Positions 5,880-33,121 of a stretch of 56,825 bases of DNA are shown piece after piece. The stretch covers positions 1 to 56,825 of IMG/VR virus record IMGVR_UViG_3300032323_001295; one strand, given 5' to 3'. The notes under the pieces were generated by a model. The model worked only from the letters and a program-made list of their open reading frames with translations. It was not told where the DNA came from and searched no databases. The stretch comes from a virus. Numbering within the stretch: position 1 is the first letter of the stretch; every line of letters begins with the position of its first letter. A program made the position numbers and the translations under genes.

Positions 5880-7505
5880 ATGCCTTTACAGATTCGCAGA
5901 GGTAATAACGCCGAAAGGCAACAGATAACACCGGCGGCCGGCGAGCTAATCTACGTCACTGATACCAAGGTCGTATTTATTGGTGATGGTACCACACAGG
6001 GTGGTGTTCCAGTAATTAACTACAGCTCAGGAACTATCAAAGACTTAGCTGCTGAAGTTTTTACACAAGGTGTTCATAACGGGATTTCATTTACATATGA
6101 TTCAGTAACCAACAGAATCAATGCTAATGTCGAACCAGACCTCACAAACTACGAAGGAACTATTGGTGCTTCTGCATTTAAAGGTTCTTTCTTTGCTGAT
6201 GATTCCACAAGATTATTAAACGGTATTGACGGTAGTATCAATTTAAATGGTACCGTAAAAACTAATGTAATACCAGGAACAGACGGAGATTACGACCTAG
6301 GTAATCCAACATTTAGATTCAATGAATTGTATCTAGCTGGCCCAGCTTTATATTTGGGTGCTGCACAAATAGTAGCTTCAGGTAGTGCAATAAATCTACC
6401 TGCTGGTTCAACTGTGGCGGGAGTGCCAATTGGTACTGGTACAGGCAGCGGAGACGGTGTTGTTGAAGGAAGTAATTATAGAATTAATATCTACGGTCCA
6501 GACAGTACATTGATCGTAGATGCCGATAACGGATTCTTACAAGGTGACCTGCGTGGTTCAATCCAGGGTAATGTATTTGGTCCTGGAGACAGTGCTTTAA
6601 TTTTAGATGCCGATACAGCTACACTGTATGGATCTTTAGAAAACTCTAGTTTAAGTATTACGCAGACAGGTGCGATAATTGGTAAACGAACCTTTAGTGG
6701 TATTGACAGTCCTGTAGATATCGGTACTAGTACTACACCTAGCACATTACAGATTTTTTCTACTCAAAGATTAATCCAAGGTTTTGCAACCACAGACGGA
6801 ACACGTACAGGTGATATTGAGGTTAGTGTATCTAGAGGAACTATGTCTTCGCCTGTTATTGTACAAGCTGGAGATACATTGGGTGGTCTAAGATACGAAG
6901 CTCATGACGGTGGGGATTATCAATTTGCTAGTCAAATTAACTTCCTAGTTGATCCAAGATCAACACCGAGTGCAGGCAATATCGAATCTATGGTAATGAT
7001 CGATTTTACCCAGAATACAGTTGCTGGTGATAGATCTTTTGTGTTTGATGGCAATGGAGATTTTCATGCTCCGTTTTCAGTTAAGACATCAGTTAATTCT
7101 TTAGGTGTTTATGATCTTGCAGATCCAACAACAAAAATATTCACAGTTTATCAGGATCGTACTGCTACTTCTGGCGACTACACACAAGTAGCCACCAATG
7201 CCACTGAAACTGAAATAGTTTTTTCTTATCCTAAAGCAGATTATATCGGCGGAAAGATTATGCTCATAGTAAAGAATGGAACCACTGGTGGAACCAGCAT
7301 TACTGAACATAAGATAGTTAATACCACTTCAGCAGTATCGGATTTGATCATCGGAGCGATGCTTACAACTGGAACTGCACCTATCGCTGGTATTGTAACT
7401 CAAGTTGGTGCAACTAATGTAGACATTGGATTTGACACTTCTGCTACTAACACCGCTGGCGATGTGTTATCGTATAAAGCTGTAATTGAATTATTTACTG
7501 CTTAA
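5880..7505 (+). CDS. tail fibre / virion adhesin-type structural protein
   Basis: The start MPLQIRRGNNAERQQITPAA followed by GELIYVTDTKVVFIGDGT is the N-terminal module common on phage tail fibres and major-tropism-determinant-like proteins. The middle has repeated FGPGDS / LNGIDGS / DLRGSIQGN blocks typical of beta-structured fibres. The last 100 residues (ETEIVFSYPKADYIGGKIML) look like a separate C-terminal domain. The protein has 541 residues. A late-type box precedes it. Its 3' end overlaps the convergent radical SAM gene by 15 bases. Receptor unknown. Confidence 0.75.
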   Translation: MPLQIRRGNNAERQQITPAAGELIYVTDTKVVFIGDGTTQGGVPVINYSSGTIKDLAAEVFTQGVHNGISFTYDSVTNRINANVEPDLTNYEGTIGASAFKGSFFADDSTRLLNGIDGSINLNGTVKTNVIPGTDGDYDLGNPTFRFNELYLAGPALYLGAAQIVASGSAINLPAGSTVAGVPIGTGTGSGDGVVEGSNYRINIYGPDSTLIVDADNGFLQGDLRGSIQGNVFGPGDSALILDADTATLYGSLENSSLSITQTGAIIGKRTFSGIDSPVDIGTSTTPSTLQIFSTQRLIQGFATTDGTRTGDIEVSVSRGTMSSPVIVQAGDTLGGLRYEAHDGGDYQFASQINFLVDPRSTPSAGNIESMVMIDFTQNTVAGDRSFVFDGNGDFHAPFSVKTSVNSLGVYDLADPTTKIFTVYQDRTATSGDYTQVATNATETEIVFSYPKADYIGGKIMLIVKNGTTGGTSITEHKIVNTTSAVSDLIIGAMLTTGTAPIAGIVTQVGATNVDIGFDTSATNTAGDVLSYKAVIELFTA

Positions 7506-9053
7506 TTTTTTAAGTAACGGTTGGAAATAGTCAGCAAAGACTGTATCACGAAATAACTGGGGGAAATCGATAGATTCCCTCAGTTTTTTTATCTCTGCTG
7601 CGGATAGGTCTAATAATAGTTCTCTATCTCGCAATCTATCATCATTGAAAGAACTAAGATAGAAGTCACCTCGACATTCTCTAGGCACTAATGTTGGATT
7701 GATATCGTCGACGATATTCTGCGCTTGATCAAAACTATTGATATCTGTGTCGTCATCTTTGCGCCACTTGAAATAATTTTCCTCTGGATTAGGAAAATAA
7801 TAACCGTACTTGCTGTAATTTCTATCAATCTCACTCATGTACATGTACTTGACTAAATCGTGATTACCAATTATGCTGAGTGGAAACATATTGGCTAGGT
7901 CAACTGGACAGTCTGCTCTTCTAAAGAATTCTGCAGCCTTATAGATCGTATCGGTGCTTTCATAGGGCAGTCCTACTATAATGCCGGCAGCGATATAACT
8001 TCGATCGCCCCAGATGTCTTTACATTGATAGATAGTATCTACTAATCTTTCGCTGGCCATACCCTTGCCAATAAACTTAGCAGTCTTAGGATTGAATGTT
8101 TCTAATCCAAAGTAAGTTTCAGCGATGCCTGCATCTTTTAGTAATTTGATCTGTTCAGGATGTGCCGCTAATAGATCAGCACGTAGGTAACACCAGAACT
8201 TTAATTCAAACGGAAGGCTCTGGCTAATATCAGCAAACATCTGCATCTTCTCTGTGCTGTCATTGAATGTATCATCTACAATAAAGTATTTGGTAGTACC
8301 CCACTGCTCGTAGTTTTCTATAAGTTCTCTACGGATAACATCGGGATGTTTGAGATAGTCTGCGGTCTTTTGTCCTATTAAAGGATAAGAACAATAGGCA
8401 CATTTAAATTTACAACCTCTGCTGATTTCTAAATTAAGAGTTTCTTGCGGTTGTATAAAATCCCAATCAGTATATGCTGTGGTGCTAGATCTAAAATCCC
8501 ATACCGGATTGTGTGCTTTACGATCGTGATCTACAATACGACCTAATATGCGTCTATTCTTTCCTGAGAGGTTGTCTAAGAGATCTATAGTTTCAGTTTC
8601 GCCTATACCTACTATAATATGATCTACTGGAGCATTGAGATAGAAATCTATTTTTGCTCCACCTATGAATGTTCGTGTTTTTGGATTACGCTGTTTGACA
8701 TAGGATAACCAAGGATCATATTGATCTTTAGCAAAGGCTCCTATGAGATTGCTTTCAGTCAATCTAATTTCATCAAGGCCTTCTCCACCTTCGCCTGGAT
8801 TACGTGTGCGAACTCCTACATCGGGAAACTTATAAGGCATCCATGTAGTAGAATAACCCACAGCTAGAGTATCTTTACCTATGGCTAGATCTAATATATT
8901 GGTATACAACGACCAATCTAAAAGAGAACTGAAGTCTATTACTAGACAAGAATAACCATTGGCGCGGATATGGCTAGCTAATCTATGTACTCCGTAGCCT
9001 CTAGTTTTAACATCAAATTGTACACTATCTGCGAATAGTACAACGTTAAACAT
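7491..9053 (-). CDS. B12-binding-like radical SAM protein (copy A)
   Basis: The protein has 520 residues. An N-terminal Rossmann-like half resembles the cobalamin-binding domain of BchE-type enzymes (GYGVHRLASHIRANGYSCLV), but the usual DxHxxG ligand motif is not visible. The radical SAM core carries CKFKCAYC (Cys214, Cys218, Cys221) for the 4Fe-4S cluster, then a TIM-barrel half with FGLETFNPKT and a C-terminal domain ending in DYFQPLLKKL. It is a clear paralogue of the upstream gene, whose end it overlaps by eight bases. Chemistry could be methylation or rearrangement; substrate unknown. Confidence 0.8.
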   Translation of the reverse strand: MFNVVLFADSVQFDVKTRGYGVHRLASHIRANGYSCLVIDFSSLLDWSLYTNILDLAIGKDTLAVGYSTTWMPYKFPDVGVRTRNPGEGGEGLDEIRLTESNLIGAFAKDQYDPWLSYVKQRNPKTRTFIGGAKIDFYLNAPVDHIIVGIGETETIDLLDNLSGKNRRILGRIVDHDRKAHNPVWDFRSSTTAYTDWDFIQPQETLNLEISRGCKFKCAYCSYPLIGQKTADYLKHPDVIRRELIENYEQWGTTKYFIVDDTFNDSTEKMQMFADISQSLPFELKFWCYLRADLLAAHPEQIKLLKDAGIAETYFGLETFNPKTAKFIGKGMASERLVDTIYQCKDIWGDRSYIAAGIIVGLPYESTDTIYKAAEFFRRADCPVDLANMFPLSIIGNHDLVKYMYMSEIDRNYSKYGYYFPNPEENYFKWRKDDDTDINSFDQAQNIVDDINPTLVPRECRGDFYLSSFNDDRLRDRELLLDLSAAEIKKLRESIDFPQLFRDTVFADYFQPLLKKLSSK

Positions 9054-10665
9054 TTTTATTTTTTCTTAGTTTTTCTAACAAAGGCTCGAAGTAGTCTTTA
9101 TTAACTGATTCTATGTATAGTTGTTCGAAATCTATAGACGCAACTAATTGTTCGTACTCTTGTTTGGTCATGTCTATAGTACGCTCTCGATCTTTTAATA
9201 TAGGATGATCAAAAGAGCTGGCATAGAAATCTCCTCGTCGAGTGTTTTGATAGGCCTGTAATTCTCGATAGCTTTCGTCAGCTATTTGTTGCGCTACGTC
9301 GAAGTTAGGAATATCAGTATCGTCATTCTTTTCCCAATACAACCAACCTTCTATACCATCTCTGGGAAAGTGATATCCGTATTGTTCGTAATTGTTGTCA
9401 AACCAACTGGTAGGAAACCATTGATTGCGTTCGCTTTTCTTAACAATGTTTAGTGGATATACTGTAGATATATCTAGAGGACAATCATCACGTTTAATCC
9501 AATCCACAGTTTCTTGCCAGCTGGCGCGAGTTTCGTGTGGCAGGCCTATCATAAATCCACCCTCAGTCCATACACGATCGCCCCAGACTTCTTTAGCTTT
9601 GTACAGTGTATCTTTACGACGGCTGCTGCTCATACCTTTACCAATGGTCTTAGAACTTTTATCATTGAAAGTTTCTAAGCCAAAAAATGTTTCTGCTACA
9701 CCTAGCTCTTTCATTAGTTCTATCTGTTCAGGATTCGTAGCTAATAGATCTACACGAGTATAGCACCAGAACTTGATCTTAAAAGGCAAGTCTCTTACTA
9801 CCTTTAACATCATTTCTAATTTTTCTGTGCTATCGTTAAACGTATCATCCACGATAAAGTATTTGGTAGTACCCCATCGTTCCCAATTCTCATAGAGTTC
9901 ATCTCGAATGATATTAGGAAACTTAAGATAGTCGTTTACATTCTTTTGACCGATGAGAGGGAAGTTACAGAACGCACATTTAAATCTACAGCCACGCCCT
10001 ACTTCAAGATTAAGTGTTTCTTGAGATTGTATAAAATCATATTCTGTATACTTTGTAGAGCTTTCTCGAAAGTCCCATGTAGATGCATGTGCCTTACGAT
10101 CGTGATCAATGTATTTTCCAAACAAGCGTTTCATACCGCGACCACTAAGGCTGTGCAATAAATCTATAGTCATAGTTTCAGCAATGCCAAATATAACATG
10201 ATCTACATTTTGCAGGTCCATGTAGAAGTCTGCCTTAGCACCACCTAACACTATTTTAAGTTTAGGGTTGATCTTTTTAGGATATAACAGCCATTCTTCT
10301 ATTTCATCTTTGGCGAACTTAACCACCATATTATCTTTACGCCAATCGTATTTTTCTTCTTTGCTATTACTGAGTTCGTGTTCAACTCCGATATGATGTC
10401 CCGGAATTTGATTGGTAAACTCCCCGGGTAATTCTGGCCAACGATAGGGAAACCAAGTAGTGGAAAAACCTATCATATAAGTTTCTGGACCTACAGCTAG
10501 ATCCATGATTTCTTTGTATCGGTCAAAAGTAAGACCAGAACTAAAATCAATAACTAGGCAGGTGTATCCGTTGGCACGAATATGGCTGGCAATCCGTTGT
10601 ACACCATAACCTCGTAATTTATGATGTGGATATGGTGCGTCGGTAAATAGTATCACGTTGAACAT
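9046..10665 (-). CDS. B12-binding-like radical SAM protein (copy B)
   Basis: A 539-residue paralogue of the next gene, sharing the start RGYGV.RIASHIRANGY.CLV, the linker DHDRKAH..WDFR, the cluster motif CRFKCAFC (Cys226, Cys230, Cys233), and the end DYFEPLLEKL. The two are translated in tandem with overlapping ends, so they may form a complex or act in sequence on one substrate. The N-terminal domain also lacks an obvious DxHxxG cobalamin motif. The divergent gene on the other strand begins 27 bases away, leaving little room for promoters. Confidence 0.8.
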   Translation of the reverse strand: MFNVILFTDAPYPHHKLRGYGVQRIASHIRANGYTCLVIDFSSGLTFDRYKEIMDLAVGPETYMIGFSTTWFPYRWPELPGEFTNQIPGHHIGVEHELSNSKEEKYDWRKDNMVVKFAKDEIEEWLLYPKKINPKLKIVLGGAKADFYMDLQNVDHVIFGIAETMTIDLLHSLSGRGMKRLFGKYIDHDRKAHASTWDFRESSTKYTEYDFIQSQETLNLEVGRGCRFKCAFCNFPLIGQKNVNDYLKFPNIIRDELYENWERWGTTKYFIVDDTFNDSTEKLEMMLKVVRDLPFKIKFWCYTRVDLLATNPEQIELMKELGVAETFFGLETFNDKSSKTIGKGMSSSRRKDTLYKAKEVWGDRVWTEGGFMIGLPHETRASWQETVDWIKRDDCPLDISTVYPLNIVKKSERNQWFPTSWFDNNYEQYGYHFPRDGIEGWLYWEKNDDTDIPNFDVAQQIADESYRELQAYQNTRRGDFYASSFDHPILKDRERTIDMTKQEYEQLVASIDFEQLYIESVNKDYFEPLLEKLRKNKNV

Positions 10666-10691
10666 GCTATATTTAATGTATTGTTATCACC

Positions 10692-11381
10692 ATGAAAAAA
10701 TTTAATTCAGTACTGGCATTCGGAGACAGCCATGTGGCAGGCTGTGAATTATCGAATAAGTATTCTTTTGAAGATTATTCTTCCGGACGTATTACTATTG
10801 AGGAAGCAGACAGCCCTGGCAAAGATCTAGCGTTTCCTAAATTAGTTGCAGATCGGTTAGGTATTCCCTGCCACAACTATGGTATGACCGGTGGCAGTAA
10901 CGATCGTAGTCTGCGAATGTTGATTAAAGCTGTTCAAGAATATCCCAACAGTCTTGTGCTGTTTGGTTATACCTGCACAGATAGAACTGAGTTTTATTAT
11001 CCAGATAAAGGAAAATTCCTCGGTAGAGACCACGAAGATTTTATACAGGTTGGATTACAATGGGAAGGAAAGATCAAAGGACGAATGCAACATCCTATCA
11101 ATGATCTATATGTAGAAAAAATTCTTAGACCCTATAACAATCTCAAAGATCTAATGTTTGTAGTTGATAATATCTGTACAGGCTGGGCAGTCGACTTCCG
11201 ACACTTGCCGCTGTTTCCTGAAGAACTACCAGAAATTGACAATGTTTTTAATTTCGAAGAACATAAGAATTATCTAGATTGGTGTGCTGCTCGAGGTTTC
11301 AAACAATTACCGTTCTTGCACTACGATCAACAGGCACATCAAACTCTATCAGATCTGATTCTTAAGGATCTAGGCGCATAG
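10692..11381 (+). CDS. SGNH/GDSL-like hydrolase
   Basis: The protein has 229 residues. GDSH at 11-14 supplies the catalytic serine (Ser13). GGSND at 66-70 supplies the oxyanion Gly/Asn block. The DQQAH near the C terminus (Asp212, His216) supplies the D..H pair of the catalytic triad. No signal peptide is present. The family includes esterases, acetyl-hydrolases and acyltransferases. In this island it could remove or transfer an acyl group on the product or on a cell-surface sugar. The 3' end overlaps the convergent radical SAM gene by 20 bases. Confidence 0.75.
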   Translation: MKKFNSVLAFGDSHVAGCELSNKYSFEDYSSGRITIEEADSPGKDLAFPKLVADRLGIPCHNYGMTGGSNDRSLRMLIKAVQEYPNSLVLFGYTCTDRTEFYYPDKGKFLGRDHEDFIQVGLQWEGKIKGRMQHPINDLYVEKILRPYNNLKDLMFVVDNICTGWAVDFRHLPLFPEELPEIDNVFNFEEHKNYLDWCAARGFKQLPFLHYDQQAHQTLSDLILKDLGA

Positions 11382-12444
11382 CCTCTCTGCTACGGAATCG
11401 ATAACGTTCCGGCACAGTATCCCATAACATCATTCCTTTGTTTATAGCTGCATCCCTTAGCATGATCTGATGCAATAAATTTGTAATAGGTTTATTAGGC
11501 ACATAGTCACACCATGGGCCGCAGCGAAGTTCTTCTAGGTCGATGGTCTTAGGATCACTCCATTGTATCAATCGGTGATTGATTCCATTAATTTTAACCA
11601 TATAATGATATAGGTTATCATCGCCAGGGATTTTTTCCCATGTCCATCCTTTGCTGTCGGCATAGGCTTTTACTGCTTTAACATGGTCGCTAAGGTACCA
11701 GCGAGGTTCGTCGGGATTGCGACCAATATCGCTACCAGCTCTGATACGATACTGCCAAGATTGATTTCCAATTCTTTGTATTTCTTCTAACACATCAGGA
11801 ATGTGACCAACGTCTTCTAATGTATATCCTGTATAGTAAACAAATATTCCTACTTCGTTACAATTTTTAATACCTTCTAATTGTTTACGATGTACAGTAT
11901 CACCTTGATAGGTATGATGATTGAGTCCTATCATCACAGCACGACATCCAGCATCTTTGACTGCCTGCGCCCAAGCCTTGTCGGCGAATCTAACACCGTT
12001 GGTTAAAATAGTAACATCCTGATGCATACGATCTAGTCGAACTTGTAGTTCAATTATTTTACTGATTAATTCTGGAAGATCTCTTCTCAGTGTTGGTTCT
12101 GCGCCAGCGAGAATAACCGAACCAGCCTCTGCTGGCCAAGATTCGATTTGAGCTAAAATTAAATCTATGGGTTTGTCTGTTGCCGCATTTTCCGGTTCAT
12201 GATAACAATGTGGACATGCGAGATTGCATCTATCAGTTACTTCGATCATAATACCGCTAGGTACATCGTATCCGTAGGGATCGAACTCTAAGGTATTGTA
12301 AAATTCAGCATCTCGCTCGATCATATATTCTGTATCGCCATGTACTGGACATGTTTTTTTCATCCATACACTGCCGTCACGTTCAAACTTTTCAGCAGGT
12401 ATGTGTCTGTAACATTCTTCGCATAATGATGTTGTCATTGCCAT
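11362..12444 (-). CDS. radical SAM protein, MJ0619/Tes-like with N-terminal zinc ribbon
   Basis: The first 35 residues have CxxC...CPxH (Cys8, Cys11, Cys32, His35) in the form CEECYRHIPAEKF...KKTCPVHGD. This is the N-terminal signature of the MJ0619 methylase and archaeal tetraether-synthase relatives. The radical SAM motif is CNLACPHC (Cys73, Cys77, Cys80), followed by AGAEPTLRRDLPEL, in place of the usual GGEP. The protein has 360 residues, shorter than MJ0619-type enzymes. Relatives form C-C bonds or methylate pterins and lipids; the substrate here is unknown. It overlaps the acetyltransferase-like gene upstream by 10 bases. Confidence 0.8.
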   Translation of the reverse strand: MAMTTSLCEECYRHIPAEKFERDGSVWMKKTCPVHGDTEYMIERDAEFYNTLEFDPYGYDVPSGIMIEVTDRCNLACPHCYHEPENAATDKPIDLILAQIESWPAEAGSVILAGAEPTLRRDLPELISKIIELQVRLDRMHQDVTILTNGVRFADKAWAQAVKDAGCRAVMIGLNHHTYQGDTVHRKQLEGIKNCNEVGIFVYYTGYTLEDVGHIPDVLEEIQRIGNQSWQYRIRAGSDIGRNPDEPRWYLSDHVKAVKAYADSKGWTWEKIPGDDNLYHYMVKINGINHRLIQWSDPKTIDLEELRCGPWCDYVPNKPITNLLHQIMLRDAAINKGMMLWDTVPERYRFRSREAMRLDP

Positions 12445-12989
12445 CTTGGGTATTTTCCTAGTTCTTCATAAAATCGATCCGGCAATAGTTGCCAAACCGT
12501 TTGAGTTGTGCCTCTATAAAATAGGTCTTTCACTCTTTTCATCTGTCCAGTCTTTTCCATGGCAGGACCAAAAATCCTATGTACTAATCTTTGTGTGCCT
12601 GCATCGTTTTCATTACTGGTAATATACAAATCGCTGCCCTTAGGTGCCCACTCTATACAAGTCGGAATTAAAAATTGACTGGTAACGTGTTGGTGAGTAA
12701 CTATTTGATTAGCGGTACGCAGTGTATTTAACGGTAACAGATCAGTGAACACACATGTACGAGCCGCTATACGATAACTGTTCGGACCCATTTCGTCAAA
12801 CGAGTGTGCAGCCACTGATCCTACTGGAATTTTATTATAGTACAATATCCATACCTGTTTTTCACGTTCGTTGTTGAAACAATCAACTAGCATTTTTTGA
12901 CTGGCGTTATTAACAAATCCTCTACTTGCTGCTGTGGCGTAGAAATCTACTAAATCTAGATCAGGGGACCAAGGAATCACTTTATACAT
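12435..12989 (-). CDS. GNAT-like acyltransferase (tentative)
   Basis: The protein has 184 residues. The segment VWILYYNKIPVGSVAAHSFD (about 46-65) followed by a strand rich in R, A and V resembles beta2-beta3 and beta4 of GNAT acetyltransferases. A clear Q/RxxGxG/A acetyl-CoA loop is not visible, so the call is weak. It overlaps both neighbours on the same strand (13 and 10 bases) and is therefore co-translated with the kinase-like and radical SAM genes. If GNAT, it would acylate an amine on the pathway product. Confidence 0.45.
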   Translation of the reverse strand: MYKVIPWSPDLDLVDFYATAASRGFVNNASQKMLVDCFNNEREKQVWILYYNKIPVGSVAAHSFDEMGPNSYRIAARTCVFTDLLPLNTLRTANQIVTHQHVTSQFLIPTCIEWAPKGSDLYITSNENDAGTQRLVHRIFGPAMEKTGQMKRVKDLFYRGTTQTVWQLLPDRFYEELGKYPRWQ

Positions 12990-13663
12990 TTTGCTTTTTC
13001 TATAAAATCTGCTGGATAATTCTTTCTAAAACTTTCCCAACATAATGTCTGTAGTAGATCAAATGGTTGAGGATCAGTCCAACTGATTCCCATACTGTCT
13101 GTTACTCGTTTCATTTCAGCCTGTCTTGTGCTGTAAATGTGACTGGTATGTTCTTCTATACTGATGTTAGGTTCATCTCGATGGTAGGTGAAAAAATAGT
13201 TTATACTTTTGAGATTTCCATCTACTATAAAGTAGCTACTAGGATGCATTGAGTATTTGTATAATCCTAGATTCCTATGTGCTTGAACAATGCTTAACAT
13301 TTGCTCTTGCCAATCAGGAAGTACGCTATCAAAATTTTCCTGTGTACATCCAGCACATTCCCAAAAGTCCGGACCTTGAACCTTTAGATATATTTTGCGT
13401 TCGGCGAAATTGATATCTAAGATTTCAGGAACTAAATTTGGATTGGTTTCAGACATCAATTTAAGATACTTTACTTCTCGATCAAACTTTTGTTCCATGA
13501 GAGCAGGATCAACGACTTCGTTTTGTCCTTTATGATATTCACCGTCATTGAAATACCATTGAACAAAAACTTTTTTATCGTCACTGATAAGGCTGGTGTA
13601 AATAAGATTGTTACGACACAGCCCATTTCCGGGTACATTATTATAGTAGTAATTATAATTCAT
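12977..13663 (-). CDS. kinase-like fold protein, degenerate copy
   Basis: A 228-residue paralogue of the protein encoded at 24458. Shared blocks are REVKYL (62-67), EILDINFAERKIYLKVQG (80-97) and YKYSMHPSSYFIVDGNLKSI (135-154). This layout matches the aC glutamate, hinge, and catalytic-loop/DFG region of small atypical kinases. Where the paralogue has MDF, this copy has INY, so metal binding looks lost and it may be a pseudokinase. The ATG at 13663 was preferred because the frame upstream starts with TTG and runs into the divergent gene. Confidence 0.5.
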   Translation of the reverse strand: MNYNYYYNNVPGNGLCRNNLIYTSLISDDKKVFVQWYFNDGEYHKGQNEVVDPALMEQKFDREVKYLKLMSETNPNLVPEILDINFAERKIYLKVQGPDFWECAGCTQENFDSVLPDWQEQMLSIVQAHRNLGLYKYSMHPSSYFIVDGNLKSINYFFTYHRDEPNISIEEHTSHIYSTRQAEMKRVTDSMGISWTDPQPFDLLQTLCWESFRKNYPADFIEKAKCIK

Positions 13664-13702
13664 ATTGTAATTAGCTGAAAATTTAATTGAGAGAATCAAA
13701 TC

Positions 13703-16783: not shown

Positions 16784-16796
16784 ATAAAAACTAGTT

Positions 16797-16804: not shown

Positions 16805-16833
16805 GTTTGAAAGATTTTCTTTCAAAATTATCT

Positions 16834-25156: not shown

Positions 25157-25163
25157 TGAAAAA

Positions 25164-25171
25164 TATTTATC
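25164..25171 (-). promoter_or_regulatory. T4-late-like promoter box
   Basis: GATAAATA on the minus strand lies eight bases before the kinase-like ATG and could start the long minus-strand operon through the oxygenase array. Confidence 0.45.
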
Positions 25172-25198
25172 GGGTGTTGTTGATAGCGTAAATAGAAC

Positions 25199-25963
25199 GT
25201 GGAACAGCCAAATAAATTAATAATGGATTCATTTAATGTAGAAGGGATCGAAATCCCTTTTGATAATAATTGGAATAGCATAGCCATCAGCCTCAGCGGA
25301 GGTGCTGATAGTGCTTTGTTAGCCTATCTACTCTGCGAACACATTAGAAAAAATCATCTAGAACATATAACAGTCCATGTTATCAGTCATATCAGATGTT
25401 GGAAATCTAAACCTTGGCAGAAATACGACAGTCTTAAGATCTATAATTGGGTCATACAAGAATTTAAAAAAATAAACTTTGAGCGTCATACAAATTTTAT
25501 CGCTCCTGATCTCGAGTATGCTGTTACTGGTCCTAGCCTAACAGACGAATACGGCAAAAAGGTCAGCGGAGACAATATACAGATCAGAGGATTTTCAGAA
25601 TACATCTGTCAGATAAACAATATTGATGCTTATTACAATGCAGTTACTAGAAATCCTAGAGGTGTTGATTTTCAGGGAATGAAAGAAAGAGATATAGAGT
25701 CCAACGAAAGCAATCAACATCTGGTATTAATGAAACATATGGATCGTTGGGCTATTCATCCTTTTAGATTTATTGAAAAGTCTTGGATCGTAGAACAATA
25801 CTACAAATTAGAATTAGAAGAATTGCTGAACAGCACCAGAAGCTGCGAGGGAGTAGTTCCCGGTGTTGACTATAAAACATATAAACCATATCAGTACGTT
25901 CCTGTCTGCGGAGAATGTTTCTGGTGTAAAGAAAGAGAGTGGGCCATTGAACACGCAAAGTAA
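25199..25963 (+). CDS. PP-loop ATPase, QueC/ExsB-like
   Basis: The protein has 254 residues. SGGADSALLAYL begins at 33 and is the PP-loop that binds ATP pyrophosphate and adenylates a carbonyl. The C terminus has Cys216 and CGECFWC (Cys237, Cys240, Cys243), the zinc site arrangement of QueC, which makes preQ0 in queuosine and archaeosine synthesis. The middle differs enough that another amide- or nitrile-forming reaction is possible. Start may be the GTG used here or an ATG 24 bases on. QueD is encoded 16 kb downstream. The next radical SAM gene starts inside its 3' end. Confidence 0.68.
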   Translation: MEQPNKLIMDSFNVEGIEIPFDNNWNSIAISLSGGADSALLAYLLCEHIRKNHLEHITVHVISHIRCWKSKPWQKYDSLKIYNWVIQEFKKINFERHTNFIAPDLEYAVTGPSLTDEYGKKVSGDNIQIRGFSEYICQINNIDAYYNAVTRNPRGVDFQGMKERDIESNESNQHLVLMKHMDRWAIHPFRFIEKSWIVEQYYKLELEELLNSTRSCEGVVPGVDYKTYKPYQYVPVCGECFWCKEREWAIEHAK

Positions 25964-27215
25964 AACATTTTGTATGCACCCGTTTACAGGGTTAGCAACT
26001 AGAGAAGACGGTGCAGTTAAAGTCTGCTGCCGATCAGCTCCCATCGGGTTTATACAGGACAGTTCATTAGAAGAAATCTGGAACGGCTATGCTATGCGTG
26101 AAGTACGTAAACAGATCCTTTGCGGAGAACGTCCGGAAGTATGTAAGCCCTGTTTTGATCTAGAAGATCAAGGAGTTGAAAGTCTACGTCAGCGTCATAT
26201 CAACGGAGTTATTCCTGAAGCACGTATTAACTTATATCCTAACGCATTGGATACATTGAGAGAAGATTACACAATGCCTTTTGAATTTCCCACTATGGAG
26301 ATCAAACTTAACAATCTCTGTAATCTAAAATGTCGTATGTGCCATCCGATGGATTCGACATCGTGGAATGATTGGAATCAGGTCAAAGACTTTTATGTAA
26401 AAGAAAATAATTACTTGGTTCCAGTGATCAGCAATCTAGGTTTAGAAACTAGCAGATATCTATGTCCATTCGAAGACACAGATAATTGGTGGGCCAGCTT
26501 TGAAAAACTATTACCACACTTTAGACGAGTAGAGTTTGCTGGCGGTGAGCCATTAATGGATCCGCAGCATTACAAAATTTTAGATATGTTGAAGCCTTAT
26601 GGAAAAAATATTGAACTCAAATACGCAACTAACGGAACAACAACAGGCATCAAAGGCGGTAGAACTATACACGACTATTGGCCACATTTCCGTAGCATTG
26701 CGGTTAATGTTAGCATCGACGGTATTCACTCTGTGTATGACTATATTCGCTCTAATTCTTCGTTTGCTACCGTAGAGGAAAATGTCAAAGTATTCCAATC
26801 ATTTCCTAATGTCAGCAGAGTCGTGGGAGCATTTACAGCACAGGCGGGAAACATCCTTCAGGCAGCAGAGTGCATTGATTATTTTATTAACGAAATGAAC
26901 ATAGTTTTTTATAGCCACAGAGTCAGCTATCCTAACTGCCTATCAGCGCAGGTGTTACCCCAAGAGTTAAAAGAATTAGCCATCAGTAGATTAGAAGCAG
27001 TGTCTAAAAGAGTTCCGTTGTTTGCTAATGTAGGAAAATATCCAATATTAGAAAAAATCACACAACAGCAGATCAAAGACAACATAAACTATCTACGAGC
27101 CAAAGATCAAAATCATCTTTGGAACGACTTTGTAGAGTTCAATCGAAAGTTAGATGCTACTAGAAGTCAGGGACCTTTAGAAAATATCGTGACAGAATTT
27201 AAACCTTATGTATAA
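25947..27215 (+). CDS. radical SAM protein with N-terminal SPASM-like domain (copy 1)
   Basis: The protein has 422 residues from a TTG start with an AGAGAG site; the ATG 27 bases on would cut off a conserved cysteine. The N-terminal 75 residues read FCMHPF...DGAVKVCC...SLEEIWN...CKPC (Cys9, Cys27, Cys28, Cys66, Cys69), a SPASM-type auxiliary-cluster pattern that normally sits at the C terminus. The radical SAM motif CNLKCRMC starts at 125 and FAGGEPLMDP follows. SPASM enzymes usually modify peptides. It overlaps both neighbours. A paralogue is encoded at 29065. Confidence 0.78.
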   Translation: MNTQSKTFCMHPFTGLATREDGAVKVCCRSAPIGFIQDSSLEEIWNGYAMREVRKQILCGERPEVCKPCFDLEDQGVESLRQRHINGVIPEARINLYPNALDTLREDYTMPFEFPTMEIKLNNLCNLKCRMCHPMDSTSWNDWNQVKDFYVKENNYLVPVISNLGLETSRYLCPFEDTDNWWASFEKLLPHFRRVEFAGGEPLMDPQHYKILDMLKPYGKNIELKYATNGTTTGIKGGRTIHDYWPHFRSIAVNVSIDGIHSVYDYIRSNSSFATVEENVKVFQSFPNVSRVVGAFTAQAGNILQAAECIDYFINEMNIVFYSHRVSYPNCLSAQVLPQELKELAISRLEAVSKRVPLFANVGKYPILEKITQQQIKDNINYLRAKDQNHLWNDFVEFNRKLDATRSQGPLENIVTEFKPYV

Positions 27216-28104
27216 AATAACCAGTGCTTGGCCCCATCAGGATCAAATTAAAGTAGAGTGGAATCTTGGCAAACGCTGCAACTATGATTGCAGTTATTGT
27301 CCTTCAGAGATTCATGATAATTTTAGTCCGCACACCGATATCAATCTTTTAGAAAAAACTGTAGATCAATTATGTGAGATCGGTAAACCATTGAGGTTAA
27401 GTTTTACAGGTGGAGAGCCCTCGGTACATCCAGACTTTGAAGATCTATTAGAGTACTGCAAAAGAAAAAGTATATTTTGGATTAACTTAACTACGAATGG
27501 TACTAGACCGTCTAGTTGGTATATTAATAATGAAATGTTTTTTAATCACATTGTATTCAGTTTACATTTTGAATATGATTGGCAGCGAGTAGTTCGTACC
27601 ATTAACGAATTCTACGATAGAACTGAAATAGATTTTTTCGTTAATGTCATGGCCCACCATGATCATATGGATAGTGTACGTAAAGTGGTCAAACAGTTTA
27701 AAGAAGTTGGTATAAAATTTGCTGTTCGTCGTATACGCTGGACTGAAGGAGATCATAATATATTCGATGATCTAAGATATCAAGGAAACGATCTTCAATG
27801 GATACTCGAACAAGATGCCACAGCCAAACCTAATGTTCGAATAGATGATAACGAAATACTACACGCCAACGATGTTATTAAACTACATAAAAATCAATTC
27901 AAAGACTGGAGTTGCAATGCTGGTTTAGAAAGCCTAATGATCAATTGGGACGGTGATGTACATCGTGCTACCTGTCGTGTAGGCGGCAGTCTAGGCAATA
28001 TCTATCAAGGAACCTTCCGTGTTCCCACAGAACCTATAACTTGTACTAGAGACTGGTGTACCTGTGCAGCGGATATTCCATTGTCAAAATGGCGTCCTGC
28101 TTAA
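27208..28104 (+). CDS. radical SAM protein, short twitch-type (copy 1)
   Basis: The protein has 298 residues. CNYDCSYC (Cys24, Cys28, Cys31) and FTGGEPSVHPDF identify the radical SAM core. The C terminus WSCNAGLESLMINWDGDVHR...CTRDWCTC supplies a second cysteine group like the twitch/SPASM auxiliary cluster. It belongs with the proteins encoded at 28046 and 32141, which share the CNYxCxYC motif and the W(S/H)CxxG block. It overlaps the radical SAM gene before it by eight bases and the convergent one by 59. Confidence 0.78.
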   Translation: MYKITSAWPHQDQIKVEWNLGKRCNYDCSYCPSEIHDNFSPHTDINLLEKTVDQLCEIGKPLRLSFTGGEPSVHPDFEDLLEYCKRKSIFWINLTTNGTRPSSWYINNEMFFNHIVFSLHFEYDWQRVVRTINEFYDRTEIDFFVNVMAHHDHMDSVRKVVKQFKEVGIKFAVRRIRWTEGDHNIFDDLRYQGNDLQWILEQDATAKPNVRIDDNEILHANDVIKLHKNQFKDWSCNAGLESLMINWDGDVHRATCRVGGSLGNIYQGTFRVPTEPITCTRDWCTCAADIPLSKWRPA

Positions 28105-29068
28105 CAAACTTTGTAGCATTTATTTCTGGTTGACAGAAACAACCTTCCTGTCTACAGGTCGTTTCTTTAATCTCCGGAGCGAATGTTTCCTTGAACTTTT
28201 CATCAAATACATTATATTTGAAATCAAGATCATAAAGCGTTTCTCCGCAGGCTCCTTGTAGGTTGCCGTCTTTGTTGACATAAAGTGTTTCAATACCCAG
28301 ACTACAGCTCCATCCTTTGAAACGGTTTAGACCGTTCAATGATATCCAGTTCTTATCAACTTTCTTAGTAGTAAAATTTTCAAATGTCAGCTTAGGGTTT
28401 CTGCTGATCATCTTGTTATTTTTCAACCACCAAAACATATTAGGCATTCTTTTTACAGAATCGCTGATAAATTTTTTCTGATCTTCTGTATAGGAAATAG
28501 TAGAATGAGAAACTTCTAATGCTATAAGCGGCCACTTGTGTTTGCTATTCTTCAATCGTTCTATGATAGATAAACACTGATCCCATTGAGTAGGATCCAT
28601 TAATACCATTGCTGTTAGATCTACATTTTGTTTGTAAAGGCAATCAGCTACTTCGATAGTATGATCGGTATTGATAAATTGATGATGACAACTGATCATT
28701 ACATGATCAAAGTTCTTACCGTATTCTTGCCACCAACGCAGAGTACGTGATCCATTAGTGGATATACTAATAATACATCGATAATTGTCTTTGAAAAATC
28801 TAGTGAATCGTTCTATCTCGGGCCAGACGGTTGGTTCCCCGCCGATGATATGTATATGGAATCTTTTCTTACCTAGTTTTTCTTTATAATAATCAAATAA
28901 GAAACAGAGATTAGATGTTAATGGTTCTAGGTTAGGCCAGCGGTGTGTGCCTTCGTTGCTGCCTGGAAAACAATACCAACACTTGTAATTGCAGACATTG
29001 CTAAGAAATAATTCTATTCTCAGCAGATCCTGTGGTGCATTAGAATCTATCCGTACAATGTCTTTCAT
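28046..29068 (-). CDS. radical SAM protein, twitch-type (copy 2)
   Basis: The protein has 340 residues. CNYKCWYC (Cys26, Cys30, Cys33), then IIGGEPTVWPEIERF. The C terminus has WSCSLGIETLYVNKDGNLQG...CRQEGCFCQ as a second cysteine group. It is a paralogue of the protein encoded convergently, and the two genes overlap tail to tail by 59 bases. It is coupled to the upstream radical SAM gene by a four-base overlap. Substrate unknown. Confidence 0.78.
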   Translation of the reverse strand: MKDIVRIDSNAPQDLLRIELFLSNVCNYKCWYCFPGSNEGTHRWPNLEPLTSNLCFLFDYYKEKLGKKRFHIHIIGGEPTVWPEIERFTRFFKDNYRCIISISTNGSRTLRWWQEYGKNFDHVMISCHHQFINTDHTIEVADCLYKQNVDLTAMVLMDPTQWDQCLSIIERLKNSKHKWPLIALEVSHSTISYTEDQKKFISDSVKRMPNMFWWLKNNKMISRNPKLTFENFTTKKVDKNWISLNGLNRFKGWSCSLGIETLYVNKDGNLQGACGETLYDLDFKYNVFDEKFKETFAPEIKETTCRQEGCFCQPEINATKFVKQDAILTMEYPLHRYTSL

Positions 29069-30477
29069 AGCAGATGTGCTAGTTCTGGAAATGTCTTTTT
29101 AAAGTCTGTTTTTCTCAGAGTATCTAATTTTTCTATATACTCTCGGAATGCAGGCAATAGATGTGTGTGATCTTCTGAATCCATAAAGTCTAACATAGCC
29201 TGCCAACGGCGCCAACCGTAGGGATTATATTTCCAAAAGTTATCATCTTGACGATAATTGTCCCACAACCATTGTTTGAACTCTGCAAACTTTTCTCTGA
29301 CTTCTTGTTTGTCCTGCTCGGGCAGCACACGTAGGCTAAGGAATGTTGGAATATACAGCAGATGCATATTAATAATACCACCGCCAGCATCTGCGCCTTC
29401 CATAACTTCAGCTAGATTTATTTTACGATAGTTTTTCTGTATCTTCCATTTGGCAAAGTCTGGAAGATGTTTGATGTTTAATATCTGTATGGCAGTGGCG
29501 ATGCTGACTTCTACATTGTCAGGAGTCTGATCTAGTATATCTAGATTCTTTTCTACTATGCTCCAATCCGTAGGGAATCTAATATAGTGATTACGATCAC
29601 CGTAGGCATCTTGGCTACAGGCAAATTTAACTTTCTTAAAGTTTTTCCATAGATCTATGATGTCTTGATCCAAAAGCAGTCCATTAGAATTGTATCTGAT
29701 CAGAATCTTGTCTGCATAACCTTGCCTTACGATTTCTTCTAAGAACAGTTTATGTTCTTTGATCATCAAGGGTTCACCGCCGGCGAAGTATACTTGCCTT
29801 AGGTTAGGAATCTGAGCATACATCTCTTTCCAGAAGTCTGGATTCTCATGCCAGAAGTTATTAAAATCTTCACGACCCCAGGCCATCTGCTCTTTTAGTT
29901 CTTTGGCTTGAAATAGAGGATACACTTTTTTGTGATCGGCTACCCATTGACTGCTGTCGTGTGGGCTACACATGATACATTTTAGATTACAGGTATGTCC
30001 TAGTCTGAGATCTAGATAAACTAAGTTTTCTGGTACGGTACCATCTTCTTCTGTCTGTTTAATTAATTCGGGTACGTCGATACCATCTTGTACCCATAGA
30101 CCAGTTTCCCACATGCGTTTGCTAGAAACACCTTTGGCTTCTTCATCGAAACATTTAGAACAGCTTTTGGGAATGTTACCTTCTAACATAGTGGTGCGCA
30201 CTGACCTCATGTATTCGTTGTTCCAGGCACTCATAGGGGTTTCTCTGCCAAAATTAGCAGGTCGACCAGTTTCGTTTTTCACAAGACCGATTTGATGATC
30301 TTCGCCGGCGCCACTGGAGTTAGCACCACAACAGAGTCTCATATCACCATTGGGTCTAGTAGCAAAGTGTATCCACGGCAGCACACAGAAAGTATGACTC
30401 CCGGAAAGATCAGCGACCTTACGCTGCCACTTACCTAGCAGGTTATCTTCGGGCTGTAACCAATAAATTTTATCCAT
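29065..30477 (-). CDS. radical SAM protein with N-terminal SPASM-like domain (copy 2)
   Basis: The protein has 470 residues. N-terminal auxiliary-cluster pattern: FCVLPWIHFATRPNGDMRLC followed by C (Cys31, Cys49, Cys50) and CSKC (Cys106, Cys109). The radical SAM motif CNLKCIMC starts at 163 and FAGGEPLMIKEH follows. The layout is the same as the protein encoded at 25947, with extra loops. SPASM before the barrel is a rearranged order compared with anaerobic sulfatase maturase-type proteins. The gene overlaps both radical SAM neighbours by a few bases. Confidence 0.78.
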   Translation of the reverse strand: MDKIYWLQPEDNLLGKWQRKVADLSGSHTFCVLPWIHFATRPNGDMRLCCGANSSGAGEDHQIGLVKNETGRPANFGRETPMSAWNNEYMRSVRTTMLEGNIPKSCSKCFDEEAKGVSSKRMWETGLWVQDGIDVPELIKQTEEDGTVPENLVYLDLRLGHTCNLKCIMCSPHDSSQWVADHKKVYPLFQAKELKEQMAWGREDFNNFWHENPDFWKEMYAQIPNLRQVYFAGGEPLMIKEHKLFLEEIVRQGYADKILIRYNSNGLLLDQDIIDLWKNFKKVKFACSQDAYGDRNHYIRFPTDWSIVEKNLDILDQTPDNVEVSIATAIQILNIKHLPDFAKWKIQKNYRKINLAEVMEGADAGGGIINMHLLYIPTFLSLRVLPEQDKQEVREKFAEFKQWLWDNYRQDDNFWKYNPYGWRRWQAMLDFMDSEDHTHLLPAFREYIEKLDTLRKTDFKKTFPELAHLL

Positions 30478-31561
30478 TAAATGTTTCTACTTTTACAAAT
30501 TGATCATCGTACTGTGTTAATATCTTTTCAGGAAATACTCCGCAGGTCTTAGCACAGGTAGCTAATTTTTTATCTTCCCAATATTTAGACCAAATATTTC
30601 TCCACTGCGAATCCGATAGTATTTCTTTTACGGATCTAGATTTTAGATCGATAGCGGTATAACCTCCTAGCGATTCTACCAGTTCGTTGATAACAGCAGT
30701 CTGTTCAGTCTGATATGTGTGAATAAGATCTGTAGACTTGCTGTAGATATAAGGCAGCGCACCTATCCAACAACAGGGCCATAGATTTTTAAAAGCATCT
30801 ATGTACAGAGATTTGTCCTGCATGACCTTGCAGCGTATTTCCGCTGTTTCAACTACTTTTTTATAACCTAAGATGATCTTAGGATCGATAAAAGTTATCT
30901 TATGTTCCTGTGGAGGCTCTATCTTATAAGCTAGGTTGCCATCTTGATCTAATACATCCAACCAGGGCTTTTCTAAAAATCTGCTAGTAGCTTTGTGATT
31001 AAACTTTTCAAAGCCCAGTGTTCTCGCTAATTCTTTTGCTTCATCGATCTGATGTTCGTTATGCTTGAAGCTGAGATAAACCCATTCTGCTTTGCCTCCA
31101 TTGCTGATAAACGTTTTAGCATTTTCAATAATCTTATTGAAGTCTGTGCCTATCCTATACAAATGATGCGTATCTGCTAATCCATCTAAGGCAAAATGCA
31201 CACAATGTTCTTCAGGCAATGCCTGTGCCAACTGCTGCCACCAATCTTTAGTTCTGGCACTGCCGTTAGTGTGGATACCTATGTTGATAGACGGCTTCAT
31301 GGTCTTGCAATATTCCACTATATCGATAAGGTCATTAGACATTATAGGATCGCCATAGTTTCCACAGAAATAGATATATCCAATCTGACCAAACACTTCA
31401 GCATCGACTATTTTTTTAAAATCTTCTAGAGATATTTCGTCTAAAGGAAGATTGGTATTTTTCTGACCGCCGTGATAGTTTCTTGCACACATAGGACAAC
31501 TGGCCTGACATCTCGAGGTCAATTCAATGTGCAGTGTTTTAAGTTCTGAAAAATCAAACAT
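30470..31561 (-). CDS. radical SAM/SPASM protein
   Basis: The protein has 363 residues. CQASCPMC (Cys18, Cys22, Cys25) starts the core; FCGNYGDPI replaces the GGEP block. The C terminus RCKVMQDKSLYIDAFKNLWP, then CC and later CAKTC, is a SPASM-type region in the usual C-terminal place, with EILSDSQWRNIWSKY between as in other SPASM proteins. It is coupled to the methyltransferase gene upstream (eight-base overlap) and to the next radical SAM gene. Probably modifies a peptide or small substrate; unknown. Confidence 0.8.
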   Translation of the reverse strand: MFDFSELKTLHIELTSRCQASCPMCARNYHGGQKNTNLPLDEISLEDFKKIVDAEVFGQIGYIYFCGNYGDPIMSNDLIDIVEYCKTMKPSINIGIHTNGSARTKDWWQQLAQALPEEHCVHFALDGLADTHHLYRIGTDFNKIIENAKTFISNGGKAEWVYLSFKHNEHQIDEAKELARTLGFEKFNHKATSRFLEKPWLDVLDQDGNLAYKIEPPQEHKITFIDPKIILGYKKVVETAEIRCKVMQDKSLYIDAFKNLWPCCWIGALPYIYSKSTDLIHTYQTEQTAVINELVESLGGYTAIDLKSRSVKEILSDSQWRNIWSKYWEDKKLATCAKTCGVFPEKILTQYDDQFVKVETFNG

Positions 31562-32150
31562 TCTTGTGTCCTATGAGCATGAATCTTTTATATAAAGGTA
31601 ATTCTAATTCCCCTGCCCACAATACTTTGATATTACATTGATCTTTAAATTCTTCTAAGCTGTCAGCTATCCTAACATGTTCTGGTATATTATAATTGTT
31701 GCTTTGAAGAACTAACAAACTGTTGTGAGAAACTTTGTCTAGCCAATTATTAAATTGTTCTTGTGTGATATGCTCACAGCTAGTGTTAATGATAACATCT
31801 GCACTGCTATCTACTGAACACATGTCGGCAGTGATAGCAGAAAACTTACCAACCATTTCTTCTATCTTATTCATGTTGATAGCGATTGGTTCACACAATG
31901 GATCAATATCTATACTGCGGATTTTTAATATAGGAACATCACTTTGAAATAACATACTGGCTAATACGCCTACCCAACCTCCGTGGATATCTACCGTGAC
32001 AAACTTGTGAATGTGTTTGCGTAGATTTGTAATCAGCCACTCTTTGCTTTTAAGTTGTCCCTGCCAGAAGGCATCCATAGTCCGCATAGGTTCTGGACTT
32101 TGTCTTATGGCCTGCATCCAATGATGTAGATGTTCTGTGTCTATTTGCAT
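31554..32150 (-). CDS. class I SAM-dependent methyltransferase-like protein
   Basis: The protein has 198 residues. VDIHGGWVGVLASML is a glycine-rich motif I, IRSIDIDPLCEPIA gives the acidic end of strand 2 that binds ribose, and DVIINTSCEHI fits the catalytic strand 4 region. The fold call is moderate. It lies between two radical SAM genes and overlaps both, so it acts in the same process. The phosphate-like substrate or peptide substrate cannot be told. Confidence 0.6.
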   Translation of the reverse strand: MQIDTEHLHHWMQAIRQSPEPMRTMDAFWQGQLKSKEWLITNLRKHIHKFVTVDIHGGWVGVLASMLFQSDVPILKIRSIDIDPLCEPIAINMNKIEEMVGKFSAITADMCSVDSSADVIINTSCEHITQEQFNNWLDKVSHNSLLVLQSNNYNIPEHVRIADSLEEFKDQCNIKVLWAGELELPLYKRFMLIGHKNV

Positions 32151-33121
32151 TTTGGTATCTTCGAGTCTGCTGAACTAAAACAGCTAGGTGTTGTACATAT
32201 CGTAGGAGATTTAAAAAGTTGAAAACCTTTAGTTAGGGTTCCTAATCTCATGTCGTGGCAACTATAACTTCTTTTAACTTCATCGCTCCGTATAATCACA
32301 CTCTGGAATCCAGAATTACAATGCCAATCTTCAAATTTGTTAAAACCAAAAGCGTTGAATCTTTCTGCTTGATCAAATAGATATTCTTTGCCTTCAGCAT
32401 CATATAGGGCTATTTGATACAGTTCTTCTCCGTTGGCGTGTTGAGGAAATCCTGTCTGCATTTTTTCTATCATATCATCTGTGTAACCTTCTACGATAAA
32501 ACTAGCAGTAGGATCGCTCTGTGGTTTTAGTGTTACATTAATTCCCCGGTCATGCAATCTTTTCATACGTTCATAAAGGTCATAGAACTTTTCCGGAACC
32601 ATAACCTGATTAATAGTTACATAGACTTGCTCATACATCAGTTGTAGGCATTTGTCTCCAAACTCTTGTTCTTTGGCAAACTCATCATGGAAACTGGCTG
32701 TTATGCTCCTACGCTGTAATAGTGAAGTTGCTTCGCACCAACTTTTCCACCACTTGCTACCAGGACTTAAATTCGTTGTCATGTGGACACTTTGGTAGCC
32801 GCTTTCTTTTTCGTCTAGGTGTTTAATCAATTCGATCAAGTCTTTATAGGCCGTAGGCTCACCGCCACTGAAACTCCAATGGAATTCTGTGAATCCATTT
32901 TCGCGAGCCTGTCTTTTGATTTCGTCTACGGTTCTTTTATAAACTTCTAAAGTGTCATAATCTACTTTGTCCGATCTAGCATAAGGCCAGCAGTAGGAAC
33001 ATTTATAATTACAGAAGCGACCAAGTATCCAACTTACAGAAAACAAAGGTCTGTCTAGCATAGTACGTTGTCCAAAGCGTACTATATTTTGAAATGGTAT
33101 TGATTTGAAATCGGTTGTCAT
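32141..33121 (-). CDS. radical SAM protein, twitch-type (copy 3)
   Basis: The protein has 326 residues. CNYKCSYC (Cys37, Cys41, Cys44) and FSGGEPTAYKDL mark the core. The C terminus has WHCNSGFQSVIIRSDEVKRS and CTTPSCF, the second cysteine group seen in its paralogues at 27208 and 28046. It is the first gene of the minus-strand radical SAM operon running to 28046. A weak late-type box (ATTAAATA, minus strand) lies just upstream. Confidence 0.78.
   Translation of the reverse strand: MTTDFKSIPFQNIVRFGQRTMLDRPLFSVSWILGRFCNYKCSYCWPYARSDKVDYDTLEVYKRTVDEIKRQARENGFTEFHWSFSGGEPTAYKDLIELIKHLDEKESGYQSVHMTTNLSPGSKWWKSWCEATSLLQRRSITASFHDEFAKEQEFGDKCLQLMYEQVYVTINQVMVPEKFYDLYERMKRLHDRGINVTLKPQSDPTASFIVEGYTDDMIEKMQTGFPQHANGEELYQIALYDAEGKEYLFDQAERFNAFGFNKFEDWHCNSGFQSVIIRSDEVKRSYSCHDMRLGTLTKGFQLFKSPTICTTPSCFSSADSKIPKCK

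Follow-up and report, generated by a model that had tools for sequence, protein, structure and literature searches.

A conserved island of radical SAM and other tailoring enzymes beside a tail fibre gene in jumbo phages, possibly involved in remodelling a surface glycan

The IMG/VR virus record IMGVR_UViG_3300032323_001295 is a linear sequence of 56,825 bases, which was analysed over its whole length and is called the window here. Between positions 7491 and 33121 it carries an island of 28 genes, according to the map of open reading frames (ORFs), and most of them encode tailoring-type enzymes: nine radical S-adenosylmethionine (SAM) proteins, seven oxygenases of the 2-oxoglutarate (2OG)-Fe(II) type, and one each of flavin halogenase, class III aminotransferase, amidinotransferase and short-chain dehydrogenase/reductase (SDR). 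Both the extent and the gene content had been proposed earlier from the letters alone (the original prediction), and both proved correct by the ORF map and Pfam. Clusters of radical SAM genes next to phage tail genes have been on record since 2010, with their function unexplained, and the island is an unusually large, conserved form of this kind of phage locus. Its genes are listed below by position in the window, with fractions giving the number of sequences that keep a residue or motif (DSBH, double-stranded beta-helix; PLP, pyridoxal phosphate).

7491-9053, minus strand: rS1, B12-binding-type radical SAM protein (PF04055 2e-17; CxxxCxxC 18/18)
9046-10665, minus: rS2, B12-type radical SAM protein (PF04055 5.5e-18; PF02310 weak; 17 viral loci)
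10692-11381, plus: SGNH-hydrolase-like protein (GDS motif 14/14 orthologues; no significant profile match)
11362-12444, minus: rS3, radical SAM protein with HMPTM-type Zn-ribbon, pterin methyltransferase/TrsS/Tes-like (PF04055 and PF23545 above cut-off)
12435-12989, minus: GNAT-like protein, a candidate label (no Pfam or PHROG match; conserved in 58 loci)
12977-13663, minus: KinA, pseudokinase-like (HRD Asp and DFG Asp absent by alignment)
13703-14506, plus: O2a, 2OG-Fe(II) oxygenase of the island core (H177, D179, H233 and R246 invariant)
14500-16092, minus: flavin-dependent halogenase (PF04820 4e-88, 297 bits)
16187-16783, plus: DSBHb, oxygenase-like (HxD 6/6; no profile match)
16807-18036, plus: AT3, class III PLP aminotransferase (PF00202 1.7e-44; PLP Lys250 15/15)
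17998-19068, minus: AGAT, amidinotransferase (H214, D216 and C340 19/19)
19065-19496, minus: unk143, partner of AGAT, fold unassigned (phrog_10325 6e-24)
19486-20097, minus: SDR oxidoreductase (PF00106 3.5e-5, just under cut-off; GxxxGxG and K116 23/23)
20087-21409, minus: unk440, weakly matched to an N-terminal GT-A-like and a C-terminal methyltransferase-like fold (AlphaFold2 model, pLDDT 86)
21396-22049, minus: DSBHc, Asp/Arg-hydroxylase-family oxygenase (PF05118 1.5e-11, above cut-off)
22037-22603, minus: DSBHd, oxygenase-like (HxD...H...R 9/9)
22593-23153, minus: DSBHe, oxygenase-like (HxD...H 21/21)
23110-23751, minus: DSBHf, oxygenase-like (HxD...H...R 3/3)
23748-24422, minus: DSBHg, Asp/Arg-hydroxylase-like oxygenase (PF05118 0.0026, below cut-off; motif 40/40)
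24458-25156, minus: KinB, pseudokinase-like (aligned with KinA; HRD Asp absent)
25199-25963, plus: PP-loop ATPase with C-terminal CxxCxxC (SGGADS and CxxCxxC conserved)
25863-27215, plus: rS4, N-twitch radical SAM protein (NF033640 313 bits, cut-off 170); the true start is probably near 25960
27208-28104, plus: rS5, radical SAM protein (PF04055 6.5e-15)
28046-29068, minus: rS6, radical SAM protein (PF04055 2e-10)
29065-30477, minus: rS7, N-twitch radical SAM protein (NF033640 404 bits, cut-off 170; 103 viral loci)
30470-31561, minus: rS8, radical SAM protein (PF04055 4e-12)
31554-32150, minus: MT, methyltransferase-like protein, a candidate label (no profile match)
32141-33121, minus: rS9, radical SAM protein (PF04055 1e-14; present in 24/25 related records)

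The central enzyme families are secure. All nine radical SAM proteins exceed the Pfam cut-off for Radical_SAM (PF04055), and none of the orthologues compared (16-62 per gene) departs from the CxxxCxxC motif, confirming the predicted number. The seven predicted DSBH oxygenases were likewise upheld, as every orthologue of all seven keeps the HxD pair, and a count of the distal His, made for six of them, gave the same result. Only DSBHc passes the Pfam cut-off (PF05118), and O2a is supported by an AlphaFold2 model (pLDDT 81) for which Foldseek returned Pro-4-hydroxylase, YxbC and PHD2 with probability 1.0. The labels of flavin halogenase and class III aminotransferase are firm (PF04820; PF00202). 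In the halogenase, the FAD motif GxGxxG (G7/G9/G12), K72 and E351 are each found in 13/13 orthologues. Its best match in the Protein Data Bank (PDB) is VirX1 of a cyanophage (6e-54), with which it has the positions of the catalytic Lys and Glu in common; it differs from VirX1 in being one slot within a large cassette. Flavin halogenases have been found in 20/153 cyanophages (PMC10452541).

For several minor members the first labels had to be revised. The two proteins described as kinase-like do match kinases in a joint profile (TTK 3e-6), but the catalytic HRD-type Asp is absent from every KinA and KinB sequence aligned and one of the two has lost the DFG Asp as well, so that they are better called pseudokinase-like. 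KinA belongs to the island core and is conserved more strongly than most enzymes there. The SGNH label is borne by the GDS motif and by no significant profile match, while for the GNAT and methyltransferase labels no such match was found for either protein. The unk440 gene had not been named before.

The island is not peculiar to this record. Homologous loci in viral contigs number 17 for rS2, 17 for AGAT, four for the halogenase and 103 for rS7. When the island proteins were mapped on longer stretches from nine records (G001, G005, G007 and G009-G014), nearly the whole set was found in these nine further viral contigs, with order and orientation nearly constant and identities mostly of 45-92%. 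Of the rS7 loci, 44 are 15 kb or longer; all 44 contain rS5, 43 contain rS4 and 42 contain rS8, and MT, the QueC-like PP-loop gene and rS9 are each present in 37. Certain pairs are especially stable: unk143 lies upstream of AGAT on the same strand in 14/15 testable loci, and unk440 adjoins DSBHc in 22/30 phage loci and in 2/3 unk440 loci from bacterial genome assemblies; of these two, L161 may be a phage contig. The ratio of nonsynonymous to synonymous substitution (dN/dS) against the closest relative, G012, is 0.02-0.32 wherever computable; for O2a, unk143 and rS7 the synonymous sites are saturated and no value could be computed. Since at least nine related phages share the set with little change of order, the island is a real, selected unit, and because its genes travel together, a common role in biosynthesis or tailoring is well supported. 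Co-occurrence, rather than single scattered homologues, was thus found, and the original observation was correct and stronger than stated.

Within this unit, identity to G012 jumps from gene to gene: it is 90% for rS9, 48% for rS8, 44% for rS6 and 85% for rS5, and 90% for DSBHg as against 52% for DSBHe. Since neighbours differ so sharply, the framework is fixed and single enzymes are exchanged. The halogenase is such an accessory slot, being represented by a diverged or opposite-strand paralogue in G011 and G013 and absent in G009 and G010. Of the proposed cluster making a tailored small molecule, the co-acting enzyme set is supported, but a single joint product is not, given a stable framework with exchangeable slots. 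Synteny and swapping combined with purifying selection fit a locus of the O-antigen or host-recognition kind. Swapping and variable slots could also be expected if the plastic region had collected unrelated auxiliary or selfish genes that have no product in common, and the neighbouring flank does hold varied auxiliary genes (ThyX, KdsA, endonuclease, IscU). Such a collection is nevertheless highly improbable, given that nine widely diverged contigs have almost the same gene order and orientation and that the pairs AGAT-unk143 and unk440-DSBHc are fixed.

The short overlaps between genes, from which it had been concluded that they are expressed together, are real. The strand switches eight times, however, leaving nine same-strand runs, so that the island is not one operon and its co-expression as a whole is unsupported beyond single runs. 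Gaps between genes do not exceed about 100 bases. The T4 late promoter motif TATAAATA was matched once against 5.75 matches expected, which leaves late promoters of T4 type unsupported, and sigma-70-like and terminator-like signals were as numerous as in shuffled sequences.

The carriers can be placed by G001, a record of 270 kb, whose terminase is 53% identical to that of PA5oct-type Pseudomonas phages and 45-52% identical to those of Phosso, Atu_ph07 and GAP32. These identities place them in the T4 superfamily, as jumbo phages with PA5oct among their relatives. Radical SAM genes number 6-16 in the window and its relatives, whereas the complete related jumbo phages in culture hold 0-4 (PA5oct 0, Phosso 4, Atu_ph07 4, GAP32 1), a richness that is therefore beyond chance. 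Cultured phages gave no match to the island by megablast and none to rS2, O2a or unk440 by tblastn. In Atu_ph07 and Phosso, matching short radical SAM operons with a cupin-like protein adjoin a giant virion structural gene (L241, 7998-15647; L242, 6866-15015); by tblastn these arrays have no detectable homology to the island. The island shows that radical SAM clusters of phages can form large units that are conserved and selected, keep their active sites intact and recur in jumbo phages.

What the enzymes act on can be approached from the classes to which they belong. Among the nine radical SAM proteins only rS4 and rS7 reach the NF033640 cut-off, which places them with the N-twitch proteins, a class rich in peptide maturases. 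The nearest NCBIfam families of rS1 are B12-dependent radical SAM families, each below its cut-off, and rS2 is its paralogue (53% identity); both resemble B12 C-methyltransferases of peptides and also of lipids. The NCBIfam relatives of rS3 also remain below cut-off. DSBHc falls in the AspH family, O2a is similar to prolyl hydroxylases, and the top Foldseek match of unk440 is the lysyl hydroxylase LH3 (3e-5), which has glycosyltransferase domains, followed by the PBCV-1 capsid glycosyltransferase (TM 0.36) and NNMT. With a fibre gene adjoining the island, these features could point to a system like those of ribosomally synthesised and post-translationally modified peptides (RiPPs), acting on a virion protein, most likely the adjacent fibres, through hydroxylation, methylation, epimerisation, Trp halogenation and side-chain amidination. 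This possibility deserves to be taken seriously, but it is unlikely: known amidinotransferases use small amines, none of the island radical SAM proteins reaches the cut-off of a RiPP-maturase family in NCBIfam, all being far below, and the narrow gaps leave no room for a precursor peptide, which agrees with the earlier remark that none is visible. A precursor may still be encoded elsewhere in the genome. A RiPP cluster was rejected, as the island has no precursor and the maturase cut-offs are unreached.

The most legible part of the island is the neighbourhood of SDR, AT3 and AGAT. The assignment of AGAT as an amidinotransferase, which has no match in Pfam, was borne out by its invariant H214, D216 and C340 and by its orthologue profile, which matches the structures of HsvA (3e-49), StrB1 (8e-43), human AGAT (2e-36) and SxtG (range 3e-49 to 9e-34). 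HsvA is a polyamine amidinotransferase. Lying adjacent, the three genes plausibly form a sub-pathway to a guanidino sugar: SDR would oxidise a hydroxyl, AT3 would aminate the resulting carbonyl, and AGAT would convert the amine to a guanidino group with host arginine. The order of dehydrogenase, aminotransferase and amidinotransferase resembles the streptidine (streptomycin) pathway, to which StrB1, the second-best structural match, belongs. The likeness is one of logic alone, as the aminotransferase class and the kinase and phosphatase steps are unmatched. Together with the fixed gene pairs, this sub-pathway is open to assay.

Part of this chemistry is also found outside phages. A profile of rS7 and rS4, run against bacterial genome contigs, led to arrays of N-twitch radical SAM proteins in Bdellovibrionota (JAUICP010000002.1; L169, L196, L193, L174), accompanied by AspH-like oxygenases and in some by an amidinotransferase; an AGAT profile scan of bacterial genome contigs gave no bacterial relative. 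On one Bdellovibrionota contig of 917 kb, N-twitch radical SAM proteins stand with two AspH-like oxygenases, an amidinotransferase and rS5-, rS8- and unk440-like proteins, at 24-34% identity over most matches, and the chromosomal setting was read by eye from DnaG- and sigma-factor-like neighbours. The stretch differs from the island in lacking halogenase, AT3 and tail genes. From this contig, part of the island chemistry is also chromosomal, which suggests a wider, uncharacterised enzyme system.

A chromosomal set of this type without phage genes would agree with a free small molecule made in the infected cell, for instance a guanidino or halogenated amino acid, polyamine or aminocyclitol serving as inhibitor or osmolyte. 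AT3, AGAT, SDR and halogenase are typical of natural-product pathways, and the structural relatives of AGAT, HsvA first and then StrB1, human AGAT and SxtG, fit the same picture. Such a metabolite must still be considered improbable, since the island has neither a scaffold synthase nor an exporter, a lytic phage would gain little from a secreted product, and the strict linkage to tail genes would be left unexplained.

Modification of the phage genome is the least probable of the explanations weighed. Radical SAM, PLP, GNAT and oxygenase enzymes occur in thymidine hypermodification pathways, and QueD-like and QueE-like genes are present in the window or in G001, so that synthesis of a modified base in phage DNA might be imagined. 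A hydroxymethylase of the thymidylate synthase family is, however, absent from 11/13 records, including the 270-kb G001 (some are fragments), with only G002 and G006 having one; the lineage uses ThyX; and gene swapping at a tail locus is ill-suited to a genome-wide modification. Thymidine hypermodification as the principal explanation was rejected for lack of the ThyA-family enzyme. The protein described as a QueC-like PP-loop ATPase is indeed a PP-loop protein with CxxCxxC, but it lies under the QueC cut-off, for which reason a role as QueC in a deazaguanine pathway was rejected as well; no other QueC was found in 17 records.

The position of the island and the sugar genes around it point to a glycan. 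The flanking features named in the argument are the following.

5880-7505, plus strand: tail fibre with the N-terminal domain of a major tropism determinant, Mtd_N, forming the 5' boundary of the island (PF18454 2.9e-11)
41968-42798, plus: KdsA, synthase of 3-deoxy-D-manno-octulosonic acid (KDO) 8-phosphate (NF003543 418 bits, cut-off 242)
42773-43561, plus: glycosyltransferase-like protein with a DxD motif 'MDLDVIV', read by eye from the translation and overlapping kdsA
45096-45795, plus: IscU and IscA-type iron-sulphur (Fe-S) assembly proteins, in overlapping genes (TIGR01999 224 bits, cut-off 192; TIGR00049 100 bits, cut-off 59)

The fibre gene adjoins rS1 in G012 too (81% identity). Downstream of the island the order is ThyX, QueD-like, KdsA, glycosyltransferase-like, endonuclease (phrog_8420), IscU, IscA-type, long tail genes and a collagen-like fibre. 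Of the two tail-gene regions originally described, the one on the 5' side, with the tail fibre, is immediate, and on the other side the long tail genes resume only at 46149, about 13 kb away. KdsA and the glycosyltransferase-like gene, the latter without a match in PDB or NCBIfam, lie about 9 kb downstream; KdsA, which ties the region to LPS sugars, is 84% identical in G022 and 48% in G002. In G001 there are genes for a heptose kinase, a cytidylyltransferase, a heptose-epimerase-like protein, GT9, GT8 and a carbamoyltransferase. Both this window and G001 thus encode glycosyltransferases along with a supply of KDO or heptose, though the feature is not universal. In addition, IscU is present in 5/17 related records (G001, G002, G006, G010 and G015).

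Comparable loci have been described in other phages. The host recognition cluster (HRC) of pelagimyophages, about 45 kb long and bounded by VrlC and by the neck gene gp14, combines fibres, GT8s and rfaE with radical SAM cassettes, and was interpreted by its authors as modifying the lipopolysaccharide (LPS) of the host (PMC7029224). In pelagimyophages and cyanomyophages the HRC is a large, hypervariable part of the structural region in which tail fibres and Mtd-type domains occur with radical SAM cassettes that vary among close relatives (PMC7029224). The present locus resembles it in the Mtd_N fibre at its 5' end, swapping between relatives and long tail genes from 46149. GT8 glycosyltransferases and rfaE-type LPS genes belong to the HRC as well (PMC7029224). 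The island differs in being a 28-gene syntenic unit with nine radical SAM proteins, seven oxygenases, AGAT, AT3 and halogenase.

In Campylobacter phages CP220 and CPt10, a module of five radical SAM genes and an amidinotransferase is exchanged, with function unknown (PMC2853527). The similarity to CP220, CPt10 and F379 (Firehammervirus) lies in an exchangeable cluster of about five radical SAM genes with a homologous amidinotransferase near tail fibre genes. The CP220/F379 amidinotransferase is 28% identical to AGAT by tblastn (93 bits, over 87% of AGAT), CP220 and F379 have 11 radical SAM genes each, and their cluster also holds nucleotide-diphospho-sugar transferase-like genes. Oxygenases, halogenase and AT3 are not annotated there, gene order is not conserved, and the only similarities to the island are those of rS5-like and rS8-like proteins and AGAT, at 21-29%. 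An equivalence of the AGAT-unk143 pair with CP220 gp085-gp086 was ruled out, as gp085 and unk143 align at only 19% identity. In cyanophage S-SCSM2R, an amidinotransferase of 24% identity stands directly beside KdsA/KdsB, glycosyltransferases and several 2OG oxygenases; this phage differs in having only two radical SAM genes in its whole genome and no conserved order.

Taken together, the island is best interpreted, with a probability of roughly 45%, as a tailoring cassette, polymorphic among phages and situated in the host-recognition (tail-fibre) region, that remodels a surface glycan during infection, be it the LPS or capsule of the host or a glycan carried by the fibres of the phage itself. 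A glycan is favoured over a free natural product because of kdsA and the glycosyltransferase here, the heptose genes in a relative and the published host-recognition clusters, and also because of the glycan genes beside related amidinotransferases in S-SCSM2R and the Campylobacter phages. After the guanidino steps proposed above, or before them, as step order is not assignable, radical SAM, B12-dependent radical SAM, 2OG oxygenase, halogenase and methyltransferase-like enzymes may methylate, epimerise, dehydrate, hydroxylate or halogenate the scaffold, which unk440 might then transfer. IscU and IscA could help to load the many Fe-S enzymes. Altered LPS or capsule would block adsorption of competitors or re-adsorption of progeny.

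Several observations weigh against this glycan-remodelling proposal. Inside the island there is no enzyme of nucleotide-diphospho-sugar metabolism and no firm glycosyltransferase, unk440 being GT-A-like only by weak fold matches (TM 0.2-0.4). A search of 13 records gave no Glycos_transf_2 gene, and KdsA occurs in only 3/22 records, many of them fragments, by which KdsA as an obligate partner of the island was ruled out. Twitch/SPASM radical SAM proteins and AspH-family oxygenases are known from peptides and proteins, and flavin halogenases from aromatic substrates.

Carried further, the glycan reading leads to a more specific picture, advanced here only tentatively: a dedicated phage pathway of about 25 enzymes may build a novel decoration, guanidinylated, hydroxylated and methylated and in certain phages also halogenated, on a surface glycan of the host or on fibres of the phage itself. 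Variants would arise by gene swapping in the manner of antigenic variation, and the pathway may be partly shared with predatory Bdellovibrionota. If a glycan is indeed the target, viruses run an elaborate, modular surface chemistry that controls adsorption and competition. If it is not, phages modify their own fibres or make an unfamiliar metabolite, which would be at least equally surprising.

Two further observations concern the surroundings. In G001 (L135), heptose kinase, cytidylyltransferase and ADP-heptose-epimerase-like genes form one run at 217253-220115 next to tail genes of very large size, and genes for GT9 and a carbamoyltransferase lie near by. The Rfam scan returned tRNAs only, and at the left end of the window thirteen tRNA genes stand in several clusters between 24 and 5104.

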